DNA of 64,000 nucleotides from Romanomermis culicivorax (lineage: Eukaryota; Nematoda; Enoplea; Mermithida; Mermithidae), in contig CAWUHX010000158.1 of the NCBI GenBank assembly GCA_963922205.1, positions 756,501 to 820,500 of the forward strand, read 5' to 3'. Made by a program: the position numbers and the translations under genes. Of this stretch, positions 11,501 to 52,090 are shown piece after piece. How positions within the stretch are numbered: position 1 is the first letter of the stretch; every line of letters begins with the position of its first letter. Under the pieces are notes generated by a model. That model worked only from the letters and a program-made list of their open reading frames with translations, did not search any database and was not told the origin of the DNA.

Positions 11501-14459
11501 TCGATTTGCGAGTCGATGGTGCTGCTCAAAATGATAGCGAATTTTGCGGTGAAAAGTTTTTTACGCATCTTTCAGTATGTTCCCCAAACAAAGTTTCGAG
11601 CACAAATTCAGCTTGTTTCTTTTTTGGAATTTATGACTTTGACACCCCATACATTACCAGCACGTAGAAAAATCCGCTAAATCGAATGCGTGTTACCACA
11701 GAAAAATTGGAATCAGTTGATAGATCTCACGAAGTTCTATATAAATATATTAAACCACAATTTTTGACAAACTTACACACTGTCAACATTTGAAGTTACC
11801 AAGAGCAGCATAAAGCTAGAATAGTCATTGCAAAACCATTATAATTGTTATATTTGACGTGAATGAGGAGTTAAGATCACTCTGACCATTACCTGTCCTA
11901 GTCTGTGAGTCGGAAAAGAGCTAAGAATCAGCAGGAAAGATAGCCAGGGATCGTCCTCAATGCACTATATGTGACATGTTATGATCATTCTTACATTCTT
12001 ATAACTTAGTGCATTTTGTGACAGCTGCCCGTCCGCCATAATTTTGTAATTGTTTTTTTAACGCCAGTGTCAGCCAAATTGGCGTTTATTTATCGACTGT
12101 TTATTGCACATATATTCTTCTGCAGCAGCGTCTCACATTCCCGACTTTTATGAGGATCATTGGGAAAAGTTCTGCGGAATACTCTGGTAGTTTTTCGGGT
12201 GCAAGTTGTTGGATTCTAGTTGCTGAATGGTGACTGAACGTTGTGCTTAGCTCTGTTAAAGGAAGCTCATTTGAGTGACCGACCGTAGCTAGTGGTACAA
12301 GCCAATAGACTTTTTAGTTATATTACTGACGTCTTTGGACCTAAGCAGGGGACCTAAACATAACACCCGAAAAAGACTAGTGGAGGACTAAATTACCCAA
12401 GGAGAAGAACGCCCACATTGATAAACCTTCAGTTTCTCAACCTGAGCTATACCTAACCACTAATCCAAAATAGGAGCACCTTCTCCTATCAAAATTTATA
12501 CGACAAAAATTTAAACACCCGGTGACAAAAATTTAAACACCCGGTGATGATAACCCAATCAATAATACACAATAATACTAGTAAGAGAAACGCCACATGG
12601 GGGCGTGACTAATGGAAACTGCATGCACAGAACATAGAAACTGAAGGCATGGGAAGTGAGCGAATAAAAAAGTCGCAGGCACACCTATCGAATCTGAAAC
12701 TACAGTAATTATCTTGGAATGGTCCCCTATATTTGATCAAGCACGTACCTGCAGGCGGCTTTCAACAAATGACACGAAATTACGAAATGATATTAAATTG
12801 GCGAAACACACTACAACATAATATTGTGAGATCTGCTCTATTTTTTAAGTCGAACTTTTCTTAAATTTTTCTCATAACAAATTTGTAAAACTGCATCGTT
12901 TACGATGTTTTTTGACCCATAATTTTGATAACTTGTGCTTGATTTTCAGTCTAGATTTCAAAATCAATCTCGGTAGAGTTTCGACTCACTCAAACGACGT
13001 CAATTTGCCAAAACTAATAGTCCAATATCCACTGCCACAGGATACGTGTTATAAAATCTTTCCATGAACTTCTTACTGTAAGTTGATACTTCAACATTCT
13101 TAGTCCCATTGTAGAAATTATGCTTAAATGTTTCAAAATATGGCTTTTTTGAAACATGCTGTTTTTCACAGGTAGGCCTGTTCGAATTGCCTTGAACGTC
13201 ATTAAAGAAGTCAAAGGGACGATCAAAGCAAATTTCATTTCAAAGTCTAGTCGAATCGACAACGTAACATTACTAGAGTATGTGTGAATTCACTAATCAA
13301 TGCAGCTTCTGTACTATCTGAATCTATAGTCTGTTTTTATAAGACGCTTGTAAACCGGAAAAATGGCAAAAACTTGCAGTGCCGTCAAAATGATTCACAC
13401 CAAATTTTTATGGTAGACTTTTCCTAAAAAAAAAATAGCGAAGACTAGTAAGCTCGACATCAGGAAGCAGTACAGTAGGACTTGAGACATTAAGATTAGG
13501 ACGCAAGGGTGTTACGACGCAGTATTTTAGGACGCAAGGGCCTCACGATGCAGGATATTAAGACTTAAGAACATTGGGACGCAGACTTTAGGACGCAGAA
13601 CATTACGAGTAATGAAATCATTCTATTACAGAGAGGGTAATAGTTGTGGTACTTTCTTGTATTTTCCTTGGCATAGATGATTTTTGGTAGATCGAGTACG
13701 CATGTAAGATAGGAATAGGCAGCTTCGCTTTTCTTAGCATATTTCATTCTCAATTGAAAATTTGAACTGCCTTACATAAAATTTCAAGATTTTCGCATGT
13801 GATATCTTCAAAAGCATTCAAATTAAAAAATTTACACGGTTTTTCACCAATTTGTAACTCTCAATGAAGAAGTTATACTCTTTACTAAATTTTTGTGCAA
13901 TTTTATGACATTTTATAATGTTTTGGAAATTTTTAAATATCGTCATACATTTTCCCAAAAGGTTGCATATCTTGGAGGCGAGCGAAGATTACGCCAATCT
14001 TCCTTCCAGGGTCAAGACTACCAGCAAATCCACTCACCAAGAATAAGTAGCGTAAGCCTAAGCCAATAGTCTCTTTAGTTCTGCGATCTAATGTCTTTGC
14101 CTGTGTTATAGTGTCCTGCATCCTAATGTCCCTGCGTCCTAACGTTTGGATCCTATGGTCAGCGTCCTAGTGACGCGTCACGAATTTTACATTTCAATGC
14201 AATGCATGGTCGAAATTCTAAGCAACTGCGTGCAGTTGATTTGAATATCATTTTTAAGCCGAAGTAAAAAACTTAAGCCTGCATCGTCCAACTCCAGTAG
14301 TAGTCGCGTGATCATCCTGCCCTGGACGATGACGCTGCAGAATTTGCAATTTGTGGAAATCAATTACGCGCCGGATAGGAGTTTGTGGGCAAAAGTCGTC
14401 AACGACAAAAAAGATTTTCCGCTAAAAAATGTGACAATAACGGATTTGTCGGACAGCAA
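2000..14459 (+). CDS. Secreted pancreatic-type lipase, exons 1-5, 3' end unresolved
   Basis: This is a member of the pancreatic lipase / phospholipase A1 superfamily, an alpha/beta hydrolase that would cleave ester bonds of glycerolipids outside the cell or in a lumen. Exons are 2000-2509, 6615-6843, 8744-8983, 11201-about 11574 and about 14278-14459, with codon phases 0, 1, 1 and (tentatively) 0 at the four junctions. Residues 1-22 are a hydrophobic signal peptide. The oxyanion-side HGW motif, nucleophile GFSLG (Ser226), LDPAG (Asp249) and CSHQ (His338) have the family order and spacing (23 and 89 residues apart). A Cys-bounded lid of about 26 residues lies between 309 and 336. Exon 5 looks like a beta-rich PLAT-type C-terminal segment. 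The N-terminus is roughly 60 residues longer than in vertebrate pancreatic lipase. Introns are 4.1, 1.9, 2.2 and 2.7 kb and full of transposon-like repeats. Exon 5 ends in phase 2 with no stop, so at least one more exon is missing. Confidence 0.85.
3013..3447. mobile_element. GC-rich 435-bp TIR element nested in a larger TIR element
   Basis: The 29-bp ends (3013-3041 and 3419-3447) are inverted repeats with about 27 matches, built around GTATATACTTACCCGTACG. The body is far richer in CpG and GC than its surroundings (runs such as GCGGGCCCCGC) and holds internal shorter copies of the terminal motif, for example near 3297-3316. It has no coding content that I believe; the open frames are by-products of GC richness. 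Confidence 0.6.
4043..4130 (+). ncRNA. tRNA-like sequence, possible SINE head or tRNA pseudogene
   Basis: The segment has an A-box-like TAGTGTAGTGGTAAACG and a B-box-like GGTTCGATTCT about 35 bases downstream, the order of an RNA polymerase III internal promoter. A D-arm (GTGT with ACGC) can be drawn, but the anticodon stem does not pair well and the T stem has a mismatch. So this is unlikely to be a working tRNA; a tRNA-derived SINE head is the better reading. Confidence 0.3.
4290..4640 (+). repeat. Arm of an inverted repeat pair (partner 5113-5460)
   Basis: About 350 bases here, from TTATTGGTGAAACAGAAAG to the GGCTCACCCT end, recur as reverse complement at 5113-5460 with clear but imperfect identity (shared TTTATCTATCGACGGCAGG). 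The arms are separated by about 470 bases and would fold into a long hairpin if transcribed with the lipase intron. Confidence 0.65.
5113..5550 (-). repeat. Inverted partial copy of the intron 1 TIR element
   Basis: Read on the minus strand this matches 4290-4640 and, beyond that, the 3700-3790 segment (GGGTAAAAATGCGCCAAAATC on the minus strand against GGGAAAAATTTCGCTAAAATC on the plus strand at 3700). It is therefore a second, internally deleted copy of the same element lying head to head. The short open frames in it are repeat artefacts. Confidence 0.6.
5720..6016. repeat. AGCT-phrase array (TTAAGCTGCAGCTCAGC type)
   Basis: Repeated palindromic blocks of the form AAGCTNNAGCTT (for example TTAAGCTACAGCTTGAGC, GAGCTGCAGCTTAAC, CTTAAGCTGTAGCTTG) are spaced irregularly with short AT-rich gaps. 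The same vocabulary recurs at 18170-18310 and 19186-19240. No coding content. Confidence 0.6.
6615..6843 (+). CDS. Lipase exon 2: nucleophile elbow
   Basis: The acceptor is CATTCTTAG at 6614 and the donor is G|GTAAAA at 6844; the exon enters in phase 0 and leaves in phase 1. It encodes residues 171-246 plus one base of codon 247. The motif NTRVVGAGVA matches the family's conserved ANTRVVGAE-type helix, and VIVVGFSLGAQ contains the GxSxG elbow with catalytic Ser226. Codons are GC-rich compared with the flanking introns. Confidence 0.9.
6844..8743. other. Lipase intron 2
   Basis: AT-rich non-coding sequence. The stretch near 7376-7530 (CAGTCTATTTTTTTAG, then AGTACTGTAATCGAAATC and GTTCCAGTCCTATGT) is related to segments near 13326-13430 and 17098-17230, so it belongs to a dispersed repeat. 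I see nothing else recognisable. Confidence 0.5.
8744..8983 (+). CDS. Lipase exon 3: catalytic Asp and lid start
   Basis: The acceptor is AATACACAG at 8743 and the donor is G|GTAAAT at 8984; phase 1 in, phase 1 out. The split codon makes Gly247, giving GLDPAGP with catalytic Asp249. The HTN motif (near 276-278) and GHLDFYVNGG (295-304) are diagnostic of animal pancreatic-type lipases. Cys309 opens the lid region. Confidence 0.9.
8984..11200. other. Lipase intron 3
   Basis: AT-rich sequence with no recognisable gene, RNA or clear transposon ends. The minus-strand open frame near 9096-9323 has no coding character. It differs from intron 1 in lacking obvious inverted repeats. Confidence 0.45.
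11201..11574 (+). CDS. Lipase exon 4: catalytic His and end of the catalytic domain
   Basis: The acceptor is CTACAATAG at 11200; phase 1 in gives Val327. SCSHQRA carries catalytic His338 and PAVYTEII follows, as the RSYKYYTDSI-like helix does in the family. Several Cys residues (SFLAFPC, GQCFETC) fit the disulfides of the catalytic domain, and KYFFDLRV looks like the first strand of the PLAT domain. The frame stays open to 11667. I end the exon at the GTATGT donor at 11575 (phase 0), the best donor that leads to the coding segment at 14.3 kb; the exact end is uncertain. Confidence 0.75.
11950..12480. repeat. Possible LTR-like or dispersed repeat in lipase intron 4
   Basis: A segment with TGTGACATG near 11969 and GC-richer text up to about 12460 differs in composition from the rest of the intron. 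Its part near 12150-12240 resembles the window start in reverse orientation (TTCAGTCAC..TCAG..CT.GAAT pattern). I find no paired LTR, primer-binding site or coding region, so the class is only a suggestion. Confidence 0.25.
12502..12545 (+). repeat. Two tandem copies of a 22-bp unit
   Basis: GACAAAAATTTAAACACC plus CGGT is present twice in direct succession. This is a recent-looking exact duplication; no function is evident. Confidence 0.75.
13478..14178. mobile_element. Phrase-array element B (GGACGCAGGACATTA type)
   Basis: The left array (13478-13607) holds about eight degenerate ~16-bp units such as GGACGCAAGGGTGTTA and GGACGCAGAACATTA. The right array (14083-14176) holds about six units in the opposite orientation, TAATGTCCCTGCGTCC type. 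The ~480 bases between are unrelated AT-rich DNA. It lies in lipase intron 4, about 100 bases before exon 5. The layout matches elements A, C and D in this window, although the phrase differs. Confidence 0.55.
14278..14459 (+). CDS. Lipase exon 5: probable PLAT-type C-terminal segment
   Basis: The coding-like sequence reads SRVIILPWTMTLQNLQFVEI and later SLWAKVVNDKKDF and VTITDLSDS, a beta-rich pattern compatible with the lipase C-terminal PLAT domain. The donor A|GTAAGTG at 14460 leaves phase 2. The acceptor could be CTTAAG at 14277 (phase 0, matching exon 4) or TTTTTAAG at 14258 (phase 2). The donor and following bases resemble the end of an M1 transposon. Confidence 0.6.
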
Positions 14460-14745: not shown

Positions 14746-14814
14746 ACAAAAAATATGTCGAGAAAGTTGAATAATTGGATACAGCTTTACGGCAATGTTA
14801 GAGTAAGGTGTACA

Positions 14815-15205
14815 GCATTCATTTTGAAATGCTCCATGCAGTGATCCCATGAAAGCAAGTTCAAATCGAAAAAACTAGTAAGCTTATTACTGTAATCCAT
14901 GGAAAAAAAATTTCGTCAGTAAGCGACAAACAGAACAACTGAAATATTAATCCAATAAACTGGTTATATAAGCGGTCAAAATTTCTCGGGTATCGACACA
15001 GTTCTGCCCAAATCGACACTGCATATGACCTTTCCACTTCTCATGAAAAATTTAGCGTTTTTCTACAGTAGTTATAAAATTGTCCACCAAGTGAAAGTTG
15101 CGCATCCAATTTAACCTTATTTTTTGATTTTCACTTTGTCTGTCGTATGAAAAAATGGGCTCTAATGACTATACTCAATTCATTTTGAAATGATCGATGC
15201 AGTGA
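14815..15205. mobile_element. M1-family TIR element
   Basis: It begins CATTCATTTTGAAATG..CATGCAGTGATCCCATG and ends with TTCATTTTGAAATGATCGA, the M1 terminal signature in inverted orientation. The interior again has AGTAAGCTTATTACTGTAAT. No coding capacity. Confidence 0.5.
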
Positions 15206-15461
15206 GGTCGTAGCCAAACTTTTGTTCAAAATTATGGAAAGCTCACTCTATTTTCGATAAACTTCTTCTTCATGGTAGAGACTCCTCTTGATGATAAGTC
15301 TTTTCAAGCATATCAAAGTTATCGAAATTGATTACCTAACCTCTAGTGGGGCTGCGGTTTGCTTAAATTTCGATCGCTGCATTGATCAAATGAGTGGAGC
15401 AGATTAAATTACTCAGGGCAACTTCTCAAATATGACCTCTTTTGACAGCTTCATTGAATTT

Positions 15462-16316
15462 AATATAGCCAATTCAATTTAAAATAATAAACACCCCGAA
15501 AATCTAAAAAGTAAGTTCAGTTTAAGATGCAATTTTCACTCAGCGGAAGGTTTTATACTGCAGGAAAAGGCTAAATTTTTTCATGATAATAGGAATAGTC
15601 TGGAAATCAGAATTCATTGTCGGCTATTATTGGCCTTACAATCGCATAAAAATGTGAAACACTTTTATTAGAATAACACAATATAACATACAACAATACA
15701 GATGGTGAGCGACGTTTTGGTAGTGTACTTACTACCTTCTTCAGGCTATGGCAATTAGAATAATTTTCGATAAATCCTTGCTTGCACTGGGGTTTGACCT
15801 CTGAACTTTGAGATTGTGTAACCGCATATGGATTATCGGGGCCAATATTCGCCTGGTTAGATCTTCCATTTAAGCTGGTGTGCCATTGCATCACTTAAGG
15901 AACTTCCTCAAGAAGGTTCTATTCCATATGTGGCCTATTTCAATGCTTTTTGTTCCTACATTGCTGGAACCTGCTACTTCCATTTCCATTTGTCTCCCTA
16001 ATTTTTCTCTTGAAGGCGTTGCTTTCATTGGCCAGTATACTGGTGTTATCAAAGCGTGGCCTACACCCACACTGGAAATCATCACGCTTGTCCACATTCG
16101 ATTTAGATAGAACTGCACCGATACTTGAGTACTACTCAAAAAATTTTGATCACTTAACCAGGTTATTGAAGGAAAGTTTCAGATGGTAGGTTTGCCGCTC
16201 ACCAACGAAAATTTTTTCCTTGATTACAGAAATAAGTTAACTAGTTTTTCCGTATTAAACTTACTTTCACGGGATCACTGCATCAGTGATTTCAAAATGA
16301 ATGGAGTATAGAAATT
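15462..16316. mobile_element. M1-family TIR element split by a retroelement insertion
   Basis: The left half (15462-15600) runs from TATAGCCAATTCAATTT through AAAAAGTAAGTTCAG to TTTTTTCATGATAATAGG. The right half (16115-16316) continues the M1 order and ends ATTTCAAAATGAATGG..TATAG. Between them lies an unrelated 0.5-kb minus-strand retroelement tail, so the insertion is nested. Confidence 0.5.
15607..16110 (-). pseudogene. Degraded 3' end of a GIY-YIG retroelement (Penelope-like)
   Basis: On the minus strand, after allowing frame changes, the text reads DDFQCGCRPRFDNTSILANE then SNAFKRKIRE, resembling the GIY-YIG endonuclease region at the C-terminus of Penelope-like reverse transcriptases. 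Next come NCHSLKKVVSTLPKRRSP, a familiar GCCTGAAGAAGG..AAACGTCGC-type tail, and AATAAAAG. Stops and frameshifts make it non-functional, and no reverse transcriptase domain remains. Family assignment rests on motif memory. Confidence 0.45.
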
Positions 16317-18169
16317 CTTGAAAAACGAAGAGTGAAAAATCTCTACTGCTTGGTCGAATCCTTCATATGGCAAGCATTGAGGACAAATTTTGACGCCCAT
16401 TCCCCATTTTTTCAGGTTGCAATCCTGTAGCGATCAAATCATAACCATGACCAAAGTTAATCGGATAATGTTGAGAACTAAATGTTAAATTCTTGTGAAT
16501 CGTTCAATGTATATACCAGGTTTTTATTGTACTACGTTGATTTGACTATTGTCTAATAAAATCTCAAAACTGCTTGTACTTTGGTTTTATAAAACCTGCC
16601 CTTGATCACACTGTGGAATCGTTATTCTCCGAAACCCTGGTATTGCAATTTTTTATAAGAATTTTTCCAATGCGTTCTATTTTTCCTATTGAATTTTCCC
16701 ATTCATGGGACGCATGGGATAAATTGTTAAGAGTTTATATCACCTATTCAGTAATTGATAATTAATTTACTCATGTGTGTGCAGTGTCTTATAAACATTG
16801 TCATTCTTAGTCTTCAAAATTTGGAATCTCTGGCTCTCCTGTCTATCAAGAATCTTTCAGCACAGTGTCCCGACAAAACCTATAGCCTGTTTTCGAATCG
16901 TAGGAATTTTTCATGGTTTGTTTATGGTAGTCAATTTTTCTTCCGGGGACGTAGAATTATGTATGTTTTCTTGTGAGTAATCACTCCTGATCCTCTGGCG
17001 TTCATAGTTAAGGATAGGGGCATGGTTTAGATTAGTGAACGGCAGACTGAGACCAAATGGAGTCGGAAGAGTTGTTCTAATCTGTTTCTCGTAAATCCTT
17101 ATAAAGTGTTAAGAAGAACAAAATAGTACTTGCGTCAAAATCGTTTACATAAAGCTTTTACTCGTAATTCTTTTTTAAATTTAGTTCGGTATCCTTACAA
17201 AGTTCCAATTCTATGTGAAATATGTCTTAGGGGAAGCTAATGAAAAATATCACAAAACTATGTAACGAGATATAAATGTATTCGTCATGAGTTAAGTTAA
17301 GTTCAGCCTACAAAAAACAAAAAATGAAGAAACAACAAACTTGTGGAACCATAAATTTTTGAACTTGCGAAAGTCACGACTATATATGTTTTTGGGGGCT
17401 TTGCTCGGAGTCCTGATACCGAGCTGAACCCCAGCGGAAACCTGGCTGACCATTCCAGAATGAATTTTCTTTTTTTAACAACTTTTATACTATCAAAAAA
17501 ATTTATTTTTTTTAAACTGAAAGATCACACTGAGAAACATCTAAAAACAAAGTTTTGGCGCATTCTGATCAATTTTGATTGATTTTTAAGCTTTCTTGAA
17601 AAAAATTTGGGTCTGACTCCCCTAAAGCTTCCATGCTGTACATGTATGCTCACCACTTCTGCTACACGTCAGAATTATATTGTCGAAGGAATTCAAAGCC
17701 CATCTATACTTTTTTCTCGAAAATTTGTCGCAAGTGGTTGCAAAAATTAGAATCAAACAAATTCCTTTATTTTCGCTGTGCGCAAGATCTTGACGAGCTA
17801 TATTCAGTGAAACATATTTTGGAAAAAATACATAGAGATATTTTTAAGCGTCTTGCGTTTCTTGCGTCAAAGCTGGATTTAAAGCGCACAGTAGATACTT
17901 AATCAGCATGTTCGGTGTCTTTCAATTGGAAATTTCGATATCTACCTTGCGATGTATTGTATACTGAAATTGTTCCATTACTTCAAGAGCAAATCACCTG
18001 CGTCTGTTTTTTTTGCGAAAGAAGTATAGGTGGGCTTTTTAGTCTTGCCTACATCATTCTTACAAAGAAGCTTTCACGGTGAAATTTTAAAATTTCAAAC
18101 ACTGCGTTTCACAGAAAAATAGATTGCATGCGACATTACGAGATGCATAGGGGGCTGGTTACATCAAAG

Positions 18170-19240
18170 AGACTTAAGCTCCAGCTGAGCTGTAGCTTAT
18201 CTCTATATGCTATACCATTTGCCGTTGAGCTATAGCTCAGCTGTAGCTTAACTCATGCACACAAAACATATCGAGAAAGTTAGGCTGCAGCTCAGCTGTA
18301 GGTTAACTCTGTACGTTATAACTAGAGCTTGCAATCTTTGGTGCTTGTTAATTTGGTGCAAAATTCCAGAGTTTTATTTAAACAAAAATTTTTTAAACGC
18401 GATGACATTATAAACTTCAATGTTTTCATGCAACAGGCTTTGTCTATGATTTGCTAAAATCATTTTATACATCAGAAATGAATGTTCCACATCAACTGAT
18501 ACGAAAGGGACATATACAGTTTTATAGTCTATTTTTCTTGAAATGCTTCCAAATATCAAGAGTAGAAAGCAAATAATATTTCAGAATTTCTAGATTTTTT
18601 TGGCAATGAGAAAAATCAATGGTGAAGTCCCTTTCGAATTCCTCATTGGCTTTTGAAGTTTCGTCCAAATTTTTTAATGCTTGGCTAAAATAAAAATCTG
18701 TTTCTGTTTACTATAATTTTTCAACAATTCAATATGACGGCTACTTTTTACACGGGAAATGTTTGTCATCAATTTCAATAACAAATTCGCATAAACGACA
18801 CTTCAAAATTTTTCTATTTGTAACTATGTAATCCGACGCATGCTGTTTACTCAATACGAAGGTTAGTTGCTAATAACGAATTCAGGAAAAATTAGTAAGT
18901 TGAACGGACCGCCGAAAATATTATACAGTTAATATGTAGAAAGGAGTTAACACAAGACGAGTTTGAACTCGGTTTCCCCTTGATTTGGTGCAAATTTTAG
19001 CAAAAACCCATATTTAGTGCAATTTAGTGCTTGATGGGATGATGTGGTGCAATACGATGCGAAAAAACTTAGTAGAGTGTTGAAAAGGTGTGTTTTAAAC
19101 GTTCCTCGACGTCCTGAATTTTATAGAAGCATAAAAAAATTTGGTGCAGCACCAAATTCTGCAAACTCTAGTTATTACATTGTCGTTGTGCAGCTCAGCT
19201 AGTTAAGCTACAGCTTAAACTGCAGCTCAGTTGGAGCTTA
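18170..19240. repeat. AGCT-phrase array split by a TIR element
   Basis: AAGCTCCAGCTGAGCTGTAG and related units occur at 18176-18310 and resume at 19186-19240 (CAGCTCAGCTAGTTAAGC). The intervening 18321-19172 is an inserted element. The vocabulary equals that at 5720-6016. Confidence 0.55.
18321..19172. mobile_element. 852-bp TIR element with TA target duplication
   Basis: The ends are ACTAGAGCTTGCAATC.TTTGGTGC and its inverse (GCACCAAATTCTGCAAAC then TCTAGT), about 24 bp with three or four mismatches, flanked by TA on both sides (18319-18320 and 19173-19174). The short phrase TTTGGTGC/TTTAGTGC recurs near both ends. No transposase is seen; it is probably a Tc1/mariner-type non-autonomous element. 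Confidence 0.55.
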
Positions 19241-20189
19241 AGTTTGTTGGATGAAACTGGCCACTGGTATACCAAGGTTTCTTCGTGCATTATTATGAAA
19301 AGATTGTTTCAATACAAATTTTTGAGTTTTCTGTCTCGGCATCAAATTCAAATTTTGAGTGCACTTCTTTGATTTTCTACAGTCTGTTTATTTTGGAATG
19401 AAAAATACAACGAACCAAAATGAAATGCAAGGTCGATACAAAAAATAGCATGCTTATTACAGTGGTCGACTGGAAATTTTTTTTTCGCCTACGAACAGTG
19501 GGAAGACAAAGTGATAATTTTTTTTTCAATAACGTGGTCGAATTAACGAAATTTGTCGATTCTATCCAAATTAATGATGGATAAATGTTGGATTGTTTTT
19601 TTGATTTCGGGTCGATGTTGTTCATTTTTAAATTCAGTATTTTCCTTTAGTATGAAGGTTACGACTTTTTACAAATTGCGAGCCACACTGAACATACTTT
19701 TTGCATCGCGTACGCCGTTCATGAATGATAAACGTCTTGTTCATCAAACCTTGCAAATTCAAGGTATTTCAGAGATTGTATAGAGAGAATGACACTTCAA
19801 CAGAGCACTCTAAATTTCGATTGTCATCGTATAACATAGAAAAATAAATTGAATTTCATTTCTCTTGTTTCCCTGTACCAAAAAATTATGGAAATGGTTG
19901 CACTGATCGGCACTTTTTCTTCCATTTTTCTTCCTCCTTATTTTTTCGACTATTGATCATAACAGAATTCTCAGACTGTAAAAAAAGAGAGAAACTATAC
20001 TCCTGAGATGAGAAAAGAACACACTTTCTTGTGGTCATCAAACGCGGCATAAAAGTCCTTAGAAGATGAGCCAATATTGGGCAATTTATTTTTTCTTGGG
20101 GTCGTTTTATTTCTACGTAATTACGTCGTAACTTTCGCGACTAATTACCGACCGCCGTCCGCACCATCAATTAAACAATATTTCATAGT

Positions 20190-24904: not shown

Positions 24905-24924
24905 GTATATATATATATATATAT
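24905..24924. repeat. TA microsatellite
   Basis: An uninterrupted run of about ten TA dinucleotides following TACTG. Confidence 0.85.
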
Positions 24925-35639: not shown

Positions 35640-36490
35640 TTCTGGTGTCAACCCTATTCAGCGAAATACACAACAGCGAAACTCTAAATAGCGGGACTCA
35701 ATACAGCGATTCTCAAAACAGTGAAGTATCAGAACAGATTCTCAAAATTAAGAATTTTCAAAAAAGTTATGTTTAGAATTGAAAAATTGAGATTGGGCGG
35801 GGTAGGCGTTTTGGCGAATAGCCTATTTGGTCCTTCAATTCGATATGGTGGATGCTGGTTGTCACACATTTTGGCACGAATCGCCAGATTTCTGACATTT
35901 GTTTTCACGACATTACAGTTTTTTATTTTGGTTGGTTTATTATAAACATATCTACATGCATGTTTTTTGCTTCTTTTTTCCTTTATCGACTTTTTTCGTT
36001 CTATATTCTTCTTATTTTGAGCCACTTTTTATTTAATTTTTTCAAAATGTGTACTTTTGCTCTATTTTTCGCCTACTTTTTATTGCATTATTTTACTTTT
36101 CATTTCTTTATTATTTGTTTTTTGTTCTGCCTTCACTGATTGATTATTTTATTCATTTCATTTTATTTGTTTGTTTCATTTTGTTTTATTTATTTCACCG
36201 CAACAGAAGCACAAAAGCATGTGTAACTTGAATGGCTAAATACGACTAAAAATAGGCCATCTCAAACAGCAAAAACGATTTTAATATTCCTAATTTGCAT
36301 ATTTACTATAAAAATGATGTGTGCGTTTACTGTAATACGTAGAACTTTTTAATATTCGCTGTATTGACATTCGCTCTTTTGAGAATCGCTGTTTTGAGAT
36401 TTCGCTGTTTTGAGACCTCGCTGTTTTAAGAGTCACTGTATTGAGACTTCGCTGTATCGAGAATGGCTGTTTTGAGGCTTCGCTAAAAAG
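35640..36490. mobile_element. Phrase-array element A, copy 1 (CTCAAAACAGCGA)
   Basis: The left array (35651-35745) has five or six degenerate ~16-bp units (CTCAATACAGCGATT, CTCAAAACAGTGAA). The right array (36354-36486) has about eight in inverted orientation (TTCGCTGTTTTGAGA). The interior is AT-rich, with a distinctive TTTCACCGCAACAGAAGCAC segment shared, inverted, with copy 2 at 50.8-52.1 kb. No coding sequence is credible; the frames at 35852-36231 are low complexity. Confidence 0.6.
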
Positions 36491-36665
36491 GTCACATTGC
36501 AAGTTTTGCGTCATTATTGTGGTCACTTCAACTTTTTATTATACAAAAATTTCAGGCAAGGCCATCTGACCGCCCGATGCACGATAATACTGACTAGGAA
36601 ATTTGCGACGAATCACGAATTAAATATATACATGCGACGAAAAAAACGATCATTTCCTCCATAAT

Positions 36666-36902: not shown

Positions 36903-39900
36903 CTAGAAAATGAAAAAAAATTTTAAGCATTGAGTTGACGTCAGAATTTTTTTAGGTCATTTTAGGGGCCTGGCCCCCTAAAAGTTTGGAAATGGCTCCT
37001 AAAATTTTAGGTCCAGGAGCCGTTTGGGCTCCTAAAATTTTGACTTATTCAATTATATTATAGTGAACTGCAGTTATTTTCATTCAATTTTAGATTTTAA
37101 GTAAGCGTTTTACAGGCTCCAAAATCATAAAACATCGAAAATTGTCCAGCGCTTCGCGCCGGATTCACTGCTTTTCTATAAAAAAAATCTATAAAAAAAA
37201 TACAAGTCAAACTTTCTAGGATTCGACAAAGGAAAGAATACGGGGGATCGACATGGAAAAAAAGAATTTTGGTACATTTCATGCAAAAGAATTTTGGTGA
37301 TCAAAATCTCAATTTTTCTGTTTTTTGTAACTATTATTTTAAATATGGAGCCTACTTTTAATGCATGATCATAATGAGGTGATTTTCATAAATTTCAAAT
37401 TTAATTTGAATTTGTCAAACTTATGAAAGTATGAACATAGTTTGTAAAATGATATATTACATGTTTTCCTACCTTGTATGTTGATGGAATAAGTTATCTT
37501 TAAATTGATTTTCCAGAATTTTAGAGTGTCAAAATCTCAAAGAAAATTTTGTTGCATAGCGCGCTGGAAAGATATAGGAAAAAGATATATATATAACAGA
37601 AGCTGCAATTTCAAAACCCTATGCTTTGGAGTCGGAAACAAATGAATTCAAGTGTTATCTTGGAAGAAGGATTGTACAAAAATAAACGAAATATGGTGTT
37701 TTTTGCATAAAAAAATTTCTTTGCACAAGGATTTTTCGGACGATGTTTGTACGTGTGGAAATATGCCTGTAACTGAAAATGCTGGGTGGAAATCAAATTT
37801 TGAACAGTGATTTTTTAAAACTGGTATCAACTGATTGAATATCTATATAATTTAATTATATAGTACGTTCTACAGTGTGTTACAAGCACGCTTTTCAATA
37901 TTCTTCAATTAAAAATTTTTGGCTCCCAAAATTTCAGTTTGGCACCTAAAAATTTAGCCTTAGGAGCCTGGTTTTCAAACCAAAAAAAGCCTGGTTGACA
38001 TTCAAAAATAATTGCAATAGTGCAAAAAATAACCTTTCCGAAGAAGAGTTTTTTTCAGGCTAGCATATATTCTGTATTTTTTACGCGAAAATTGATCACA
38101 CAAGACTCGATTTTGAAATGATCGATGCAGCAATCCAATGGAAATAAGTTCAACACGATAAGAAGCAGTAAGCTTATTGCTGTAATGATTGCGGAAAATT
38201 TCTCGTCCATGAACGATTAATAAAATATGCTGAAAATCTCCTTCCATAACCTCGTTAAACAGTCAAAATTTTTCGAGAAACGAGACACACTATTGTCCAA
38301 ATCAAAAGTGGATAAGCATGTTGGTTTTTCTATAATTTGGGTCTTCCCATTATCATTGAGAAATTTAGCGATTTTCTACAGCATAAAGTTTTTTACTCCG
38401 TCAAAATTGCAAATCATATTGAACCTACACTTTAAAAATGAATAAACCATAGTTATAGTTTCAACATTTCAATTGTTTTTCATGCTGTTCGGCGATGGAA
38501 AAAATCAAGTTTTAAGCAAATATGTTAAATAGCCAACAAGAAAGTTACATCCCATTTAGGTTAAAATGATAAACGTGGCGAAAACCAAAAAAGTATGTTC
38601 AATTTCATACGCGATTTTCACTTAACGGAAAATTTCATACTGTAGAAAAACGCTAATTTCTTCCATGAGAATGGGAAAGGCCATAATCCTTCGAGAAGCG
38701 AACTGAGCCAATACGTGAATGCTAACCACTCAACCAGGTTATTGAAGGAAATTTTCACCTATTCTGTTGATTGTGTGTCGATTCACCGAAAGTCCCGATT
38801 CTTCGAATAGTGCTTGAGATTTTATCTACTAAGTCTCGCTTTAGCAAAAGCCTCGATTCCTCAAAAAAAATTTTTTCCCGAAAAATCCCGTTTCTTCGAA
38901 AATAATAAATGTGTAGGTTTAAATTTACCATTTTGTAACGTGAAGGTTCCCACGACATAAAGTTCCCACTGTCTTTTCCACCTTGAAAAGTAAACCACTG
39001 TGGTCAAACCTAAGCTTAAGTCTAAGCCTAAGCCCCAAGCATGGCCATCGACAAAAAATCTCTTGATGCTGTGGAACGTTCATATCATCAGATATAGTAA
39101 TTTTGAAATTATGGTATTTACGACCAAATTTACAGACGTTTTAAAAAATCGATCTGTTTGCATATGCACTTTCGATGAACTTGGATTTGTGTGATGCACC
39201 AATGTTCAATGAATCATAAATTTCATCTTCTTTTCGAAGAATCGGGAAGGCAAAGTCATGATGCACTATAACATGTATCGAGAAATCGTGAATTTTATCC
39301 TCTTTTCGAGGAATAGGGACTTTCGAGGAATAGGGATACAACCATTCTGTTCGCCGCTCACTGACGGAAATTTTTTCTTCATGGACTACACTAATAAGCC
39401 TTCTAGTCTTGTCTGCATTGAACTTACGGTCATGGGATCGGTGCATCGATCATTTCAAAATTGAACATAGATGTCAAGTGAACATCATCAACTTATGGAA
39501 CCTGTAACATAAAAACATACAATAAGCGTGTCACTCAATTAGAAAATCAAGAGCATATCTACATTGGTTACTGTAAGATACAAATTCTCAGCAATTCGTT
39601 TTTAAAAATATCCTGTAGCTTACAGTAAGCAAATGACGAAAACTTTTTCAACGTCCGAAAATTGTTATGGTTTTTAAGCAATTTGCTGACCTCCCTAGTC
39701 TCGCTGTTATCTCAAAAATTATAAAACGATGAAAAATACTATAGAAAAATGAACCTAATCGAAAACTGTTATGATTGTTATCAAAGTTGAGACCGCTAGA
39801 CTATTAAACGAATAAGACGGACGAAAATGAGAATAGATATAGAAACCTTCAACGTTTTTCATGCAATCACAAAATTATGAACCAGTGAAAAGTATCAAAA

Positions 39901-43216: not shown

Positions 43217-43828
43217 AATTATCATACTTTTTCGAAAAAGCCAAGGATAGAGTATAAAAATGTGCACCACCGTATCGGGTCAAAACAATAATGATTCACA
43301 ACTATTGCGAAAGTTCCTTTTTATAGGAGGGCGGCTGGCTGGAGCAGAAACCGCGCTCTTCGCCGTCTATTCTGTACAAAATACAGGACCCAACGTGCTA
43401 AAATTAGATCCATGTTTATTGAACCAGTTAATAAACTTATCATCGCGCATACCAAAAGAAGCTTGTTTTTCACACAATGAGGATGTGGCCCTGTGGTCGA
43501 GGAGGTTAGTGAGTGAAAAAGGCCTAAAATTAGCAAAGCAACACACGGAGCAGATTAAAGTACAAAAACTTTGCAAAAATAAAGCTAGAAATGCTATTTT
43601 TAGTTGTTTTTGAGTTAAAATCTTATTTTCTGTATCTTTTTCCTAACAAAAAAACTAAAAGCAAGATTTGACCAGTATTTTGGGTCGGTAGTGATTCAGC
43701 TACCGAAGTTTTTTCAGCCTCTGTGTCAATTCAGCCACGTTTATTTTTCCTCGTGGAAAAGTTATTTCTCATTTTTATTACTAGCCGCATATTTTCTCAT
43801 TGAAGAATTGAGGATTTTGGACCTACTA

Positions 43829-44931
43829 TAGGGACGGACAGGGTTCACTTTTTTGAGTTTCCCGGTTGCGTTTCGGGTTTTGCATTTTTTGAGTTTACGG
43901 TTTCGGTTTTCAGATTTTGAAAACCGCGGTTTGGTTTCGGTTTTCATGCTTTATTTTATAGTTATTGAAATCGAAAGATGAAATAGACAAGCAAAGTTCT
44001 CTTTCTCATTTTGCTGTACAGAAGAAAATGGATAATGCTGATCCGAGATTTGAGGAAATTGATGTAGCTATTACACAAATGATTGTCGTTGATGATCAAT
44101 TTTGTTTTCGTGTTTTCGAGAATCCAGGTTTCATTAACTTGATCAAAAGAGTGAGTGTGGAATAAGAGCGGTAATCAAAGTGCTGATCAATTTTTCAACA
44201 AATTTTAGCTCTCGACATATCAGCTTAAAGGAAGAAAATTCTACAAAAGGCTAATTTTGAAGCAACATGGTGAGCTGAAAAATCGACTGAAATTAATTAT
44301 GAGTAAAACTGCTTGTAGTGGAATTTCCTTCACTACTGATTTATAGTCCAATGAGCAAGAAGACTTAATAAGATAAGAGAGCTTTTGCGCCATGAATTTT
44401 GAATACATACAGAAGCCTAACTTACTAATGTAAAATGTATTCAAACAAAAAACGGACATTCAATGACATAGATGCACTTCAATGATGGCAAACCAACTGG
44501 AAAACCTACCCAACATTGGTAAAGCTTGCAAGGCGTTACCTCAGAGTACCAGCCATGAGTGTGCCCTCAGAATAGCTGTTCAGTGGTGCAGGAATCATCT
44601 TTTAGCTATTACAAAATTGTATTCCATGTGAATCAGTAGAGAAGCTATTATTTTTGAAATATGATTTTAATGAATTTTTCAAATAATAGAAAAATTGGAT
44701 TTTGTATGTAGAGGATTAATTCTTTTATTGAATAAAGTTTTCATTGCATCACTGCATCAGCGTTATTTTTATTTTCTCATGGAGTTGTGAATTTTGCTCA
44801 TCTTATACCTTATTTTTAAGACTATGCAGACAACCGTGAAAACCGTAAAATTTACCCCCGAAATGCCGGTTTTTGTTTCAGAAAAAATGACCGTTTTCAT
44901 GTTTCGATTTCGGTTAACTGGATCATCCCTA
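43829..44931 (+). mobile_element. Internally deleted hAT transposon
   Basis: The ends are TAGGGACGGACAGGGTT and, inverted, TAGGGATGATCCAGTTAAC. Subterminal regions on both sides are crowded with GGTTTCGGTTTT-type phrases in inverted orientation, the same end architecture as the phrase-array elements. The interior encodes part of a hAT transposase. No clean 8-bp duplication is visible at the ends I chose. Confidence 0.55.
43965..44346 (+). pseudogene. hAT transposase fragment with an intact 58-bp intron
   Basis: Segment 1 (43965-44150) reads FEEIDVAITQMIVVDDQFCF then ENPGFINLIKR, the region before the catalytic core in hAT/ZBED transposases. A GTGAGT donor at 44151 and an ATTTTAG acceptor at 44208 bound a 58-bp intron. 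Segment 2 (44209) continues in frame as LSTYQLKGRKFYKRLILKQH and ends ISFTTDL followed by TAG, where the family has TTDxW. The zinc finger and the rest of the catalytic and dimerisation domains are missing, so it is inactive. Confidence 0.65.
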
Positions 44932-47047
44932 CAAATAATTATGTTTCGATAAAATTTATGAGGCACAAAATGTTGTTTCATCACATTTGAGGATTCGTTG
45001 CTTTTTACCAGAAGAAGTCACAGATGTCGAATGTCGAAATGCGGGCATTAATGGTCAAGCTTACCCTCGAAATCTCAATTCTCCTGGATTTTCAATGGTC
45101 GCTCAACCTCTTGTAAACCTTTCGAAACTAAAAAGCCACGTTTCTCGACAAAAAAAAGAACATTGGCAGTAGTAAATTCACCCATCCTTTCCACTTTTTA
45201 ACTAGTCAACAGAGTCTTCACCGCAATGAATTCTTGAAGTCCATCAAGCATTTCCTTAATTGTTTCACCTGAGCTTATTCATATTTGAATGGCTGAATTG
45301 ACTCAGTGGCTAAAATGATACAGTTGGCTGGAACAACGCGGGGGCTGAATCGATACTCTATGTAACGGTGGCTATAATGATATGACGGTTGGATCAACCC
45401 ACAGTTGGCTAAAATGACACAGTGTTCTGAAACACTAATACAATAAATTTTCTGATGAGGCACTGCACGAATCGTAGAGTCACACTAAACTTGATATATC
45501 GAATGCGTGAGTCAAAAAAGTAAATGAACCAACTGGAGGAGTTGAAGTTGAATATAACTCAACGAAACAATCTTTCGACATCCAGTTTGTTTCTGAATGT
45601 GAATTTTTGTTTTTTCCTTAGATACAAAAATGAAGAAAATTTGAAAATTAGGATGCAAATTCAGAATTAATCTCATTGAACTAAGAGTACTGAATTATTA
45701 GTAGTGTACTATTCAACTAATGAGTCCGTAAATTAGTTCAGTATCGACTCAGGATCAAAAAAACAACCTCAGACTTAAAAAAACGAATTATATTTTCGAT
45801 GGACATCCAAACATTTTAGTCAAGTTTTAACTCTTCACTAGTCAAAGGTCACATCTCGTACAAAATGCGTTTAAATGGGAAATTACGAAAGCTGCTACTG
45901 TCCTCAAATCAGGCTTTCACTTACAGAATTGTTCACTCAAAACGTTCCTACAGGTTAGTTAAATGTACTCAGAAATTTCCAGTCCTACATAACTGGCATA
46001 CGGCTTGGTAGAAAATCGTAAAAACAGGGATTAGTACTTGCTTTACAGTTTCGTTATATAGAAAGTTGTAAAATGTTTGTAAATAAAAAATGACCGAAAT
46101 TAGCACTGCCGTCGACAACGCTTTCACATTCTTTTTACTATAGAATTTTTTCCTGCGAAAACAGACAGTAATTTCATTTACATAATGCATCTGGAAAAAA
46201 GCTAGTGATTGACATTTGAAGTCAATATCACAACCCAACAGGGATTTTAGCCGAAAAAAGTAAGAACTGTCGTCAACTTTTATCCATTTCTCATTGTTAA
46301 TGGTCCAAAAATTTCATGATGTCAAAGAATCCTGAGCACAAACGTGATTTAGGAAATTATGTCCACACATATTTCCCTAAATGAAAAACGATAAAAACGG
46401 ACTCCAGATAAAATTTCAACCACCCCTAATTCCATCAGAAATGGAGATCTGGACACCATTTTTCTTACCCGGCTTGAAAAGTGAGGTAAAATGTGGTTGG
46501 TGTGAAACATTATCCAGATGATGTTTAAACCTCACCATGTCGATGTATGGTCAGAAAAATGTGAAATAAATCTAATTTCGAGGAAAATGCAGACTTCGGG
46601 ACCAAACTTCTGGTCACATAACCACTGTTTGCATAGACATGTACCAGGAGCCCGGATTAGAAAGGTGTGCATATAGTCTTATCAAGCAAGCATACAGAGA
46701 ACATAACGGTCCCTCGGAGTTTGCTTTTTCACAAACAATTTACAGTAGACTGCCTTTATCAGTTTGGTGCAAGGACACACCAAGGAAATATGCAATCTGT
46801 TTTTAGATCGTTTCGCATGTTATACAAGTTTGTTTTCACTAAAAAGTTTGCGGTTTTGCGGCAAAAAATATTTCGCAAAGATAAAAAAGTCCTTTTTCTA
46901 TATTCATTTAAATTGAAAAAGGGTTTTGTACTGTTTCGTAGATCGCCTTAATTCTTTTTATCTTAAAATAACCGATGCAGAGATAAGGTTACATAAAAAA
47001 GGTTACACTATAGAAAAAAGCATTGAAACGCATGACAGTGTAATGAC

Positions 47048-48383
47048 CAGTGTTTTTTCTGCACCCGGCTTTCTGCACAGTGCAAAAAAGCGAAAAAAAG
47101 TTTCTGCACTGTGATTTTCTCCAATAACCACTGTTTTCTTTACCCTGGACTTTTTCTCCAAATGGAGAAAGGGGTCAAATTCCCCCCCCCCCATTTTTTC
47201 GAAGTCGTTTTTTCGCTTAAAAATGCTCAAAAACGCTTTATTTATTTGTTTTTGATCTTTTTCAAACCATCTGGTGTTTTTAGAGCCGATAGTTCATTAA
47301 AATTCTGAAAAAAATTTAAATTTTCGAGTTTGATCGAAGTACAATCTACAAGCATTGTGGAACAAATTTTCCAGCAAACTATCCAAGAGCATAATGACTT
47401 TGAATTATGTGAGAAATCGATGTTTAAGTCCTCTATGATGACAAATGAGATCCAAAAAGAAATTAATCATGGGTATTGACATTCTGCCACGTGGAAAATC
47501 AATTTTCCGAACACTTATTTCAAGAATTAGATTCGAATTTTGTGTTCAAAATTCGTAATTTCTAGAATTTTATTATTTGAAAATTTTTAAAAACAGTAAT
47601 TTATTCGTAAACTTTTGTGAAATTGTCCAAAAAGATGTGAGTAAGAAGAGCAGAAATTCCCCAAAACTACTTCCATGAAGCTTTTGAATTGATTTTACGT
47701 TAAGAAAGGAATAATCGGTTCAAAAAGTTTAGAGAGTTGACCTGTTGATCTTTCTCAAAAAATGTGTTAAGGAAAAATGTGAATCTTCATTAAATATTAA
47801 GATAAAATATTGAAGCTTGCCAATTAAAACATGAGATAATACGTTTAAGATTTACGAAAACTACTATAGTTTGAGTGATTTAAGGTAGACATGCCTAAAG
47901 TCGCGAATGAGCTAGGTAATGACGATTATTAAAGTTATAACCGGAGCCAAGCGCCGAAAAATTTTGAGATCTTCTTAAATGCACCAAATGCATTTTTTTC
48001 TGTATCCGATTCCCAAAATTTTCTTCCCCAAATGGAGGAAAAGCCCAAAATTTTTCCCCCTTTTCCAAACTTTTCCCCCAAAAAGCACGATTTGGGGAAA
48101 AACAGTGCCTGTGACAACACAATAATAGTGAATATAACATAGGAAAAAACAAATTAGATGAGTAATTCCATGTTAAATTTGAACGAATTTAAAGTTTTGT
48201 TGACTAAAGTCTTAAAATAAGAAAAATAATTGATTTTTAAAGTTTAGAATCAATGACTAACACATTGTAGAAGAATATATGTGATCAAACACATGGCTGA
48301 AAAAATTCTCCACTAGAGCAAAAATCATCGAAAAAATTCTGCACGAAGCCTAAAAAATCTGCACTGTGCAGAAAAAAACACTG
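47048..48383. mobile_element. hAT-type non-autonomous element, 1336 bp
   Basis: The ends are CAGTGTTTTTTCTGCAC and the inverse (GTGCAGAAAAAAACACTG), flanked by GTAATGAC (47040-47047) and GTAATGAA (48384-48391), a 7/8 match to an 8-bp duplication. Subterminal TTTCTGCACNNTG phrases repeat at both ends. The interior holds a run of 11 C near 47181 and GCCAAGCGCCG-type text near 47945. No transposase frame. Confidence 0.6.
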
Positions 48384-50104
48384 GTAATGAATGAAAACAA
48401 TTTTTTATGAATAAGCGGTAACGTTGTAGACCGGGTGGCCGACTGTGCCGGCTGGCCGACTCTCGCAAGATGTTCATGATCTTATGTGCATCTTGCATCA
48501 CACCATTCACTGACATGCAGATCGTGCCAGGACTGTATGATAGTCCAATTCTCAAGATTTAAGACCTTATACTTGGATCTTGAATCAGCAAGAGGTTCAT
48601 GTCTCGACTCCGAAGACCTTAATCCGACACAGAAAGATAAGGATCATACGTTCTTGAAGATTATCTATGAGTCAGAGTAAGAAGCGAACTTTGTTACGAA
48701 ATAATGTGAACTGGTTCGGGCTGCAATATCAAAAATGATGAATACATAGTGAATAAATTTTTTCAATATTATTCGGTGCGTGGGTCTACGAAGAAAGATT
48801 TTTACATTGAAACATGCATATTCTTCGCACGAGTTTTTTTGATCCCATTTGTCAGGAATAGACTCCTCTAGGATGAGATATCAATTCTCGGTGAAGAAAT
48901 CCCTTTGAAGTAGTTTTGCCGAAGAATAAATAGAGCTTTTTTATGATCTCTAAAAATCGGCATCGTTTGGAAAAGAAGTTTTTCGAAAAAGCCCATAGTA
49001 TGTTATTGGAGCACATAATAAAGAAACTATATAAGGAAAAATATCATCACGGCTAGATCGATCTTTAGGTTGCGAGTCAAAAACAATTTTCCTGCGCTAT
49101 CGAGCAACAAAAAATGATTTCCGCATCATCGACCGGCTCGATTTTGTTAGAAAAAGGTATGAAAGGTCGAAAATGCACTTGTACGCTTTAAAAATTGAAG
49201 CATTTTTTTCATGATTCTTGCGTATCCTCAACTGAACTTTTTTCCGATTCTCTGACATCGAAGTGATTTTCCGATTTGAAGAATATCACATTTATTTTCG
49301 CTGCATATGCCATTTAGAAAGTATGCAGTTTTTTGAGAGCGCTTTAATTACGAACACGTATAACAGAAATCAAAGTCTATGTGATGTCAATTAAATTTTA
49401 CCCAAATTTAACTGCTCACAGCTCCATCTTAAATGAGGCAATGAAAGTACAGAAAATTCATCAGGTTAAACTTTATCTGAACACTGACCCCCACCGGAGT
49501 TCGTCAAATTTGAATTGACATGAAAGAAAGTTCATCATTCTACAGTATGTAAAAGGATTTCAGCAGCGTATTTTCAGACCAAATGTAAAATGCCATAAAA
49601 ATTGATGTTCGCTATGAATAAAAACTGAAATGTTGACACGATAACTACTGCTGCTCTCCAAAGAGAACCAGTGAAAAAATTAATGAATCAATATCAAAAC
49701 TAAAGCAATTATCAATGCTTCTTTCGTCATTCCTATAAATTCTTATTAAATAAAGATTTTTTGTAGCTCTTCATTTCATAAATCTCAAGGGAATTTACCG
49801 TTTCCAGAAAGCTTTCACAATAAGATTTTTCACCCAAAAGATGTTAAAGGTTTGTCGGTTGAGTAGACTCACAAATTTTCATTTATAAGGTGACGTATAA
49901 TTCAGAATAAAATCACTTGTTTTTCATTTTTGACTCATTAAAAAAACAAACTATAATGTGTGCTGCGATTTGGGATAAGCATCGAAAAACAAGTTGTAGC
50001 TGAAAATAAATCAATGCCAACTTCACAAGAATTTTGCTGGCCACGTTTTCTTTGAGTCTGCATGTGTGACTACAGTAATATATTTAAGCTCATTGTCTAC
50101 TTAA

Positions 50105-50385
50105 GTAGCGATACGACGAAAGTAAGTTCAACACGGGGAAACAAAGAGTCATTACTGTAATCAATTGAAAAAAAATTCCCGCAACAAACATTTCTTACAA
50201 TAACCCGATTGAATTTTCAAAGCATTACAATTCAGTTTTATTCAAATCAATGAATATGATGCTTTCCCCATGAGTTTGGGAAGAAATTCAACGTTTACAG
50301 TTAGCATAAAGTTTTGAAAATTGACCCTGTGCCTGTTTTCGATGCGTTCATTCCAAAGCAAATGGGCTATAGTGAGATCTTAATG
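50105..50385. mobile_element. M1-family TIR element
   Basis: It contains GAAAGTAAGTTCAACACGGG and AGTCATTACTGTAATCAATT near the left and ends TTCCAAAGCAAATGGGCTAT. It is diverged but keeps M1 order. Confidence 0.45.
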
Positions 50386-50784
50386 TCAAAGTTTATAGTT
50401 ACAAAACTGTACAGCTGTCATCAGTTTCTATTTTGATAAGAAAACATACAGTTGACTTTTTTGTATTTTGTCATTCGAAAAAAAGAAAAAATTCAATAAC
50501 AAGAAATAGTATTATACACTATGTTCTGGTATTTCACTAATAGAACTAACTTTAAACTTCCGCCAAACTGTAGAAAAAATATTGGGTCAAAAAAGCAGAA
50601 AATCTGAAACTCATCTATATGAAAAGTATTGATTAGAAAGTTATGCGGTCTGCTTCGCTCACCTCAGAAATGCGCGAGTTACCGTAAAAAAGCTTTGTCT
50701 CACGATAAAGAACTGTTACAACTCATAAGTTTGGGGCAGCTCAATCATGCGTATATGGGGCAGGGGGTGAACTGGTGCGTCCCC

Positions 50785-52090
50785 AATATTGTGAAACTCA
50801 AAATAGCGAGACTCAAAACAGCGAAGTGTCAATACAGTGATTCTCGAAACAGCGATTGTCAATACTGTGAAATCTCAATACACCGATTCTCAAAACAGCA
50901 AAGTCAACAGCGACTCTCAAAAGAGCGAATCTCAATACAGCGAATAGTAAAAAGTTCTATTCATTAAAGTAAATGAACACATCATTTTTATAATGAATAT
51001 GCAAATTAGGTAATCGAAATCATTTTTGCTAGTTGAGATCTATTTTTCCTGAGATCTATTTGTCTATTTTTGGTTGCATTTGGCCATCTAAGTTTCACAT
51101 GCTTTTGTGCTTCAGTTGCGGTATGGTCATACCCGTATACGGGACTTTAAAAAAGGGGGGGGGATTTTCCAATTTTTTTTTAGAATTTACTGAATAAAAA
51201 GAAAATAAAAATCATTCAAGGACGACTTATTTTCAGTTAGTTCATGTGTGCTTGGATTAGTATCTAACTTCTATATTTGACAAAAAGTATGTAAATATAA
51301 TAATTTAATTTAAGAATTGTGATGTGATATTGCTGAAAATTTTTTTCTAAGAAAAATTTAGGGGGGGGGGGGAAATTCCCACCCTTCTCCCCTCTAAATA
51401 TGGGCCTGGGTATGATATGCGCGAATGAACCATTCCAAAATCACAAAAACATATATGTATTTTCGCAAAACGTTTGAAACAAAAAATTATCATAAGGATT
51501 TCAGACTAAAATTGCTTTGTATTGTCACGTGCCAATGAATTTTGTTGAACGTCACGTGATTCACATCACAATTTTTCTTATGTTTTTTGCTACGTTTTGT
51601 GTTACAGTAATTTGTATCAATTTTATGTTTCGTTTTTATAATTTTTACACGCAATTTATGTGTGTACTTTTTATGTTTCGTTTCTGTTTCATTTGCGGCG
51701 CTTAATTGCAAAAAAATTGAATAATGAAATAAATAAAACAATAATGCAATAAGAAAATAAAATCAAATGAATAAAATAATTAAGCAGTAAAGGCAGAACA
51801 AAACACAAATAATAAAGAAACGGAAAGTAAAATAACGTAATAAAAAGTAGGTAAAACATAGAACACAAGTACACAACCTGAAAAAATTTAAACAAAAAGA
51901 ACAATCAGTGACTCAAAATAAGAAAAATATATAAGGGAATAAGTCAGTAAAAGAAAGAAGAAACAAAAAACATGCATGTAGATAATATAGTTCCATTCTA
52001 AAGATTTTTGAAAATTCGCTATTTTGATTTGTTCTGACATTTCGCTCCAATGTGAATCGTTGTTTTGAGTCTCGCTGAATAGAGTTGAAA
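50785..52090. mobile_element. Phrase-array element A, copy 2, inverted relative to copy 1
   Basis: The left array (50795-50946) has about nine units (CTCAAAACAGCGA, CTCGAAACAGCGA, CTCAATACAGCGA). The right array (52016-52085) is inverted (TGTTTTGAGTCTCGCTGAAT). Interior segments 51085-51121 and 51725-51990 match the reverse complement of 35.9-36.3 kb. About 600 bases between 51122 and 51720, with runs of G at 51157 and 51361, are absent from copy 1 and look like a later insertion. Confidence 0.6.

Follow-up and report, generated by a model that had tools for sequence, protein, structure and literature searches.

Transposons with family-specific arrays at their ends in Romanomermis culicivorax, and their probable place among Phantom/Muta-type Mutator-like elements

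Several transposons whose ends are built from short repeated units have been described. Tm1, a Mutator/Foldback element of root-knot nematodes (Meloidogyne), possesses, in the sections of its description used here, two unlike outer motifs and arrays of a 13-15-bp unit that vary in number, together with duplications of 8-10 bp (mostly 9), a Phantom-type transposase and paralogous empty sites (PMC3169594). Of the 14 families of Mutator-like elements (MULEs) Muta1-Muta14 of Aedes aegypti, which have been placed in Phantom (PMC6446971), 13 are described as encoding a FLYWCH finger; subterminal tandem repeats of 9-15 bp occur in 10 of the 12 families whose terminal inverted repeats are long, and Muta1 ends in a palindromic motif and makes duplications of 8-9 bp (PMC5225508). 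In Galileo of Drosophila, a member of the P superfamily, a THAP finger binds sites within the tandem repeats of the long ends, according to the portion of that report consulted (PMC3688188). Here we consider a stretch of 64,000 nucleotides from Romanomermis culicivorax (contig CAWUHX010000158.1, positions 756,501 to 820,500), referred to below as the window. A sequence-only reading of the window had noted, between 13478 and 52090, transposon-like elements of 0.6-1.7 kb bounded by arrays of a degenerate word, with a different word in each of the families A, B, C, D and F, and had inferred a hAT lineage. The window contains worn copies of these families; their anatomy is already published, and they add further members to the Muta/Tm1 kind.

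For family B we took 20 stretches containing 19 elements from the genome assembly (359 Mb, 595 contigs). These were picked for having both strands of the word listed close together, so that the opposed orientation of their arrays is partly built in. In each of them the forward words lie to the left and the reverse words to the right, with single strays in L016, L017, L020 and L021. The termini are sharp and unlike, GGCGCTATGCC at one end and CGTGACGCGTCAC at the other, the last twelve bases of the latter forming a palindrome, and each terminus runs directly into its array. With up to three substitutions allowed, 17 of the 20 stretches contain the palindromic end and 16 the other. A target duplication of 9 bp, within one mismatch, flanks 13 of 17 copies and is perfect in 8 (mean match of the control, 0.26). 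The 17 are the 20 entries minus L011, L014 and the window copy, in which a terminus was not located, and two of the misses (L010 and L018) are copies that the script anchored one word inside the element. One further copy has a perfect duplication at 8 bp. In the window copy the left terminus is worn, its start is approximate, and no convincing target duplication was found. Three long copies, L016, L020 and L027, match the MULE domain PF10551 with E values of 1.5e-4, 2.4e-4 and 1.4e-3, respectively. Further, three fragments of L016, from the middle, the catalytic core and the C-terminal region, align in order by blastp with better preserved MULE proteins of the same genome (1e-7, 6e-18 and 5e-12). 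By its transposase domain and its 9-bp duplications B is a MULE family, and it lacks the features that define hAT elements. One B copy (L021/L022, G000:C101:847000-859300) contains a nested long terminal repeat element with frames that by eye are gag/pol-like and envelope-like.

Families A and D also have fixed ends. The termini of A are GGTTTCACCCCTATTCAGCGAAA and GGCGTGTCCCCAATACAGCGAAA and those of D are GGTTGTATCCC and GATTGTGTGTC; these GG/GA termini are not alike at the left and right of a single element, a feature also of published MULEs. The two A copies of the window belong to one family in opposite orientation, aligning at 77-83% over two stretches, and the ends of A1 were aligned with those of eight other copies. 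Duplications of 8 bp within one mismatch are present in 5 of 10 A copies (2 perfect, control mean match 0.28); the misses include A1, for which no duplication was found and to which the script gave a wrong right end. The corresponding figure for D is 3 of 7 copies (2 perfect, control 0.30), with 2 of 9 entries dropped. The D element of the window is the clearest instance, with ATTCTGTT on both sides and a paralogous empty site: two other window copies of the repeat that hosts it hold a single copy of the target; a third host-repeat copy in this alignment did not align across the site. The fixed ends and family-specific end arrays proposed by the sequence-only reading are borne out by the termini of B, A and D. 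The target duplications that it reported are likewise present, in the window at D (8/8), A2 (7/8) and F (7/8) and in the genome copies of A, B and D. The host repeats form a family with inverted ends (14816-16303, 22962-23331 and 38107-39464), in one copy of which D is inserted. A2 contains about 600 bp that are not in A1 (51123-51724), and within these a shorter segment whose inverted ends are CATACCC-like. An outer terminus seemingly common to A and D, GGTnnnAnCCCTATTC, was noticed by eye. The similarity scores of the words (A-D, 5.5; A-C, 6.0) are below the 95% point of shuffled MULE words (6.5) and we therefore claim no kinship.

The same design is found around MULE genes elsewhere in the genome. 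A search with PF10551, in which the best 150 of 248 candidates were scored, gave at least 122 matches, and 22 distinct loci were examined. Phrase arrays accompany the gene at 16 of these. At 12 loci they lie on both sides and are mostly or wholly opposed (L049, L051, L052, L057, L058, L060, L061, L063, L064, L074, L075 and L077, of which L064, with 2 and 3 matches, is the weakest), and at four they lie on one side in view (L053, L055, L056 and L073). Besides that of B there are eight words: G CGACAATTGGGTGAAT, J AACAATTGCTCGC, M ACAATTCGTCCCC, P ACAATCCGTCCCC, Q GCAATTCGCCCCC, K CATCCGCAGCCT, N TTCAAAAGCGCAG and O CCCTTTTCCCCGACC. Because arrays occur at MULE loci with a word that differs by family, the phrase-array design belongs to a MULE group in this genome. 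Some of these genes encode zinc fingers: Pfam FLYWCH is found in the transposases of M, J and P, and RYYR-CCHC is matched below the cut-off by K and N, with a weak match also in O (E 0.007). In A, B, D and the 12 loci with arrays on both sides, a terminal motif is followed by opposed arrays of short repeats, the arrangement that defines a type-2 foldback element, and the duplications of B (9 bp) and of A and D (8 bp) fall within the 8-10 bp by which MULEs are recognized.

Taken together, these results make it quite probable that A, B and D are mostly non-autonomous copies of several MULE families of the Phantom/Muta type (type-2 foldback), as C probably is too. With Muta, as far as the cited account describes it, they share subterminal tandem repeats, duplications of 8-9 bp and the many non-autonomous copies with free interiors; B and the array-flanked genes share the MULE transposase as well, and the palindromic terminal motif of Muta1 resembles the B palindrome GTGACGCGTCAC. 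Unlike Muta as there described, the elements studied here have other words and termini, the two termini of one element differ in A, B and D, and some of the array-flanked transposases match RYYR-CCHC, not FLYWCH. The likeness to the published picture of Tm1 extends to the unlike outer motifs, the unit arrays, the duplication length, the Phantom-type transposase and the paralogous empty site. Tm1 differs in being, in that picture, one family with one word, where many words are found here, and its word shows no similarity beyond shuffles to the nine MULE words of this genome (lowest p 0.18 of 9). A word core common to Tm1, the MULE families and A, C and D was also considered and is not supported by the shuffle comparison.

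Several observations weigh against the assignment to MULEs. The three PF10551 matches of B are all below the curated cut-off. Pfam FLYWCH was not found in the N-terminal frames of B that were scanned, the B copies being broken, nor was any finger found in the G frames scanned; the Pfam finger scans covered B, G, J, K, M, N, O and P. There is no opposed array at six of the 22 MULE loci. One of these is L054, whose flank was viewed for only 1.5 kb, and in the others (L059, L062, L076, L078 and L086) the transposase is visibly of a second MULE type, with VDGTYRLN at the first catalytic motif; short palindromic words lie near both sides of L076 and L078. A clear duplication is absent from half of the A copies and from 4 of 7 D copies. 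For A, C and D no transposase was found. The search for an autonomous copy that the sequence-only reading had suggested yielded long B copies with MULE fragments, and no coding copy was recognized among the 9 A and 8 D stretches first fetched or in L085. The long A copies L033 (2.9 kb) and L085 (2.5 kb) showed no transposase by eye, no family scan having been run. Finally, the words of A, C and D are unlike the MULE words (27 comparisons, lowest shuffle p 0.03 and 0.04). A and D are assigned to MULEs from their termini and duplication length only, and their membership is accordingly put forward as putative.

In the sequence-only reading, a single hAT lineage had diversified its subterminal binding repeats family by family. 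hAT elements such as Ac possess short repeated words near their ends and 8-bp duplications, which the 8-bp duplications of A and D fit equally; hAT ends are CAG/TAG, not GG/GA, and the hAT transposase is other than that of B and of the array-flanked genes described above. hAT genes are common in this genome, with at least 150 scored matches, of 1837 candidates. Next to the gene, eight hAT loci (L065-L072) carry 6-9 short palindromic words of the type GATCCGGATC, an end style unlike the MULE arrays, and at none of these loci does any of the words A-E or G occur in more than one place. A hAT remnant does lie between the C arrays and it is real, since PF05699 scores 28.5 bits in an open stretch of 29 residues and 53.4 bits when stops are read through. 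This remnant appears to own its ends (TAGGGA); a target duplication was not found for it. In the three other C-phrase stretches fetched (L046-L048) the C flanks match and the hAT piece is missing, L047 for instance matching both flanks with no hAT piece between. The remnant is therefore best read as nested in C, not as C's own gene, and the hAT gene is rejected as the owner of the C arrays because none of the three other stretches contains it. No convincing target duplication was found for C in the window. With B a MULE family bearing 9-bp duplications and with arrays flanking 16 of 22 MULE loci, the hAT assignment does not hold for B and lacks support in the case of A, C and D; one hAT lineage for all of them is unlikely. 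F may itself be a hAT element, given its CAG ends and one 7/8 duplication in a single copy.

It is also conceivable, though quite unlikely, that A and D come from a third superfamily with repeated ends, for example a P/Galileo-like one, and resemble MULEs by convergence. Galileo likewise possesses long internally repeated ends, which in the published excerpt are bound by the transposase finger (PMC3688188), and neither A nor D has been linked to a gene in this genome, in which P and other transposases were not searched for. Galileo as there described has another transposase superfamily and another finger (THAP), and the architecture in question occurs here around MULE genes.

The sequence-only reading had proposed a genome-wide search with each array, and every phrase proved far more frequent than its control, the same pattern read backwards. 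On the two strands the A phrase was found 799+796 times against 1+2, B 290+286 against 4+12, C 26+36 against 1+0, D 368+344 against 2+5 and F 510+483 against 1+2, where the counts for large families are lower bounds. Both A termini together gave 507+505 against 0+0. That these are ordinary minisatellites lying in pairs by chance, as degenerate tandem repeats and the long one-direction runs of A and C words might suggest, is extremely improbable, and it is rejected for A, B and D by the opposed orientation, the fixed termini and the duplications, together with the empty site of D. The one-direction runs of A and C words are about 1.4 kb long (L037, G000:C4:74000-77000; G000:C241:201093-202450) and look as if end arrays had grown satellite-like.

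Within the window all five phrases were located where they had been reported, in arrays at both ends of the elements. Profile matches exceed the number expected for the same stretches: 13 against 0.37 (A1), 13 against 0.34 (A2), 12 against 0.29 (B), 9 against 0.25 (C), 9 against 0.29 (D) and 7 against 0.20 (F). These profiles were seeded from the phrases of the sequence-only reading and refined on the same stretches, and so are not independent of it. We therefore also consider a phrase-blind scan, which counts distinct inverted diagonals in each cell of 120 x 120 bp. In 20 second-order Markov simulations of the window the maximum was 3 in 19 cases and 4 in one. The highest values in the real window were 12 for A1, 9 for E1 (18121-19260), 8 for B, 7 for A2 and 6 for E2 (5701-6000). 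D reached 4, as did one long plain inverted repeat and the pair 47041-47160 / 48301-48420; as this equals the top simulation value, D alone is marginal in the scan. C, with a value of 3, is not distinguishable from simulation there, and its support comes from the phrase search and the genome count. F is prominent in the direct-repeat scan (5, against at most 3 in simulations). The opposed arrays that had been claimed are present in A, B, C and D, and those of F are of mixed orientation.

E1 and E2 in this list represent a sixth family, E, which lies inside and before the span of the sequence-only reading, is absent from it and was found by the phrase-blind scan. Its word, TTAAGCTGCAGCTCAGC, occurs in both orientations, its ends are of the CAGGGG type, and there are further copies (L080-L083); in the genome its terminus gave 225+228 matches against 0+0 for the control. 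Among 5 copies (3 of 8 entries were dropped for a missing end) none has a target duplication within one mismatch at lengths 7-11, and there is one 5/6 match at length 6. E thus has arrays and no detectable duplication of the fixed length that marks hAT elements and MULEs. The coordinates of all these features are collected in Table 1.

Table 1. Array-ended elements of the window and associated features (window coordinates).
Feature	Position	Strand	Description	Evidence
A1	35644..36515	-	+ array 35651-35724, - array 36356-36477; right end approximate	profile matches, alignments
A2	50774..52092	+	+ array 50796-50943, - array 52016-52085; duplication GGTGAACT/GGTAAACT (7/8)	
B element	13434..14182	.	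+ array ~13445-13602, - array ~14112-14182	profile matches, sequence
B right terminus	14170-14182		GTGACGCGTCACG; also in other B copies	
C	43685..45423	.	- array 43685-43736, + array 45291-45423; outer limits approximate	
hAT remnant inside C	43829..44934	+	TAGGGA-type ends; PF05699 stretch 44486-44572	
D	38769..39343	.	575 bp; + array 38774-38902, - array 39231-39338	profile matches, duplications
D duplications	38761-38768 and 39344-39351		ATTCTGTT; 8/8 identical	
F	36942..37993	.	CAG ends; duplication GTTGACGT/GTTGACAT (7/8); arrays of mixed orientation	
E1	18148..19266	.	word TTAAGCTGCAGCTCAGC; TAGGGG/CAGTGG ends; no duplication	
E2	5734..6011	.	second E array cluster; ends not found	

Some other features of the window may be mentioned. 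The clearest host gene seen is a frame of 200 residues on the minus strand (21830-22432) with a helix-loop-helix domain (PF00010, E 2e-16). A TTTTTCT-rich, strand-biased tandem tract of about 940 bp occupies 30314-31252. A long inverted repeat (55285-56063 / 58038-58824) has arms of about 800 bp with 80% identity and encloses a direct repeat (56359-56586 and 57777-58033).

How might the arrays work? In the scheme that we favor, each family would be defined by two unlike terminal motifs, opposed arrays of a private word of 14-18 bp and a target duplication of either 8 or 9 bp. By analogy with Galileo, a zinc finger at the N terminus of each family's transposase would bind the word; a row of many weak sites may give the end its specificity and gather transposase multimers, and the DNA would be cut at the terminus. 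A, C and D would use a MULE transposase. If copies are moved as long as their ends are kept, their interiors are free. The capacity of opposed arrays to fold back into hairpins, which had been suggested, is supported by predicted energies below those of shuffled sequences for the D element of the window (z -4.5) and for the B copy L028 (z -20.5), in a rough test that used RNA energies, two elements only and 25 shuffles by a simple swap routine with unchecked mixing.

The nine MULE families permit a comparison of words with transposases. The FLYWCH-bearing families J, M and P go with words around a CAAT core, and different words accompany K, N and O, which are RYYR-CCHC-like. Across the nine families, word similarity correlates with protein score (rho 0.36, p 0.036) and with protein identity (rho 0.46, permutation p 0.009). 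When N and O, whose domains are partial, are removed, the remaining seven give rho 0.78 (p 0.003, 3000 permutations) for scores and 0.73 (p 0.008) for identities. When the near-alike M, P and Q are thinned to M, the identity correlation is rho 0.36 with p 0.056. The identity-based and thinned correlations were added after the score-based run. We tentatively suggest, as a possibility short of an even chance, that the words are a natural recognition code, in which word and transposase have changed together in at least nine MULE families of one genome, and mutually deaf families arise side by side. On this reading many weak sites are read together, so that arrays would tolerate drift and a change in the finger could be followed unit by unit. 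Two findings argue against a strict code. First, the K and N domains are 66% identical and their words score 6.0, which is within the shuffle range. Second, word scores across finger types go up to 9.0 (P-O) and 7.5 (M-O), compared with 5.0-15.5 within the FLYWCH group and 3.0-6.0 within the RYYR group.

As a whole, these results correct the label of hAT to MULE for at least one array-ended family and probably for the main ones, and they illustrate how end arrays that have degenerated may be mistaken for minisatellites when raw sequence is read. Nine transposase-word pairs with correlated similarities in one genome are possibly new; no published correlation of this kind was found in the literature searched, from which subscription journals were mostly absent. 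The pairs provide a ready set for inferring DNA recognition by FLYWCH and RYYR-CCHC fingers. If the recognition code is true, it would explain how transposon families that are deaf to each other originate side by side.

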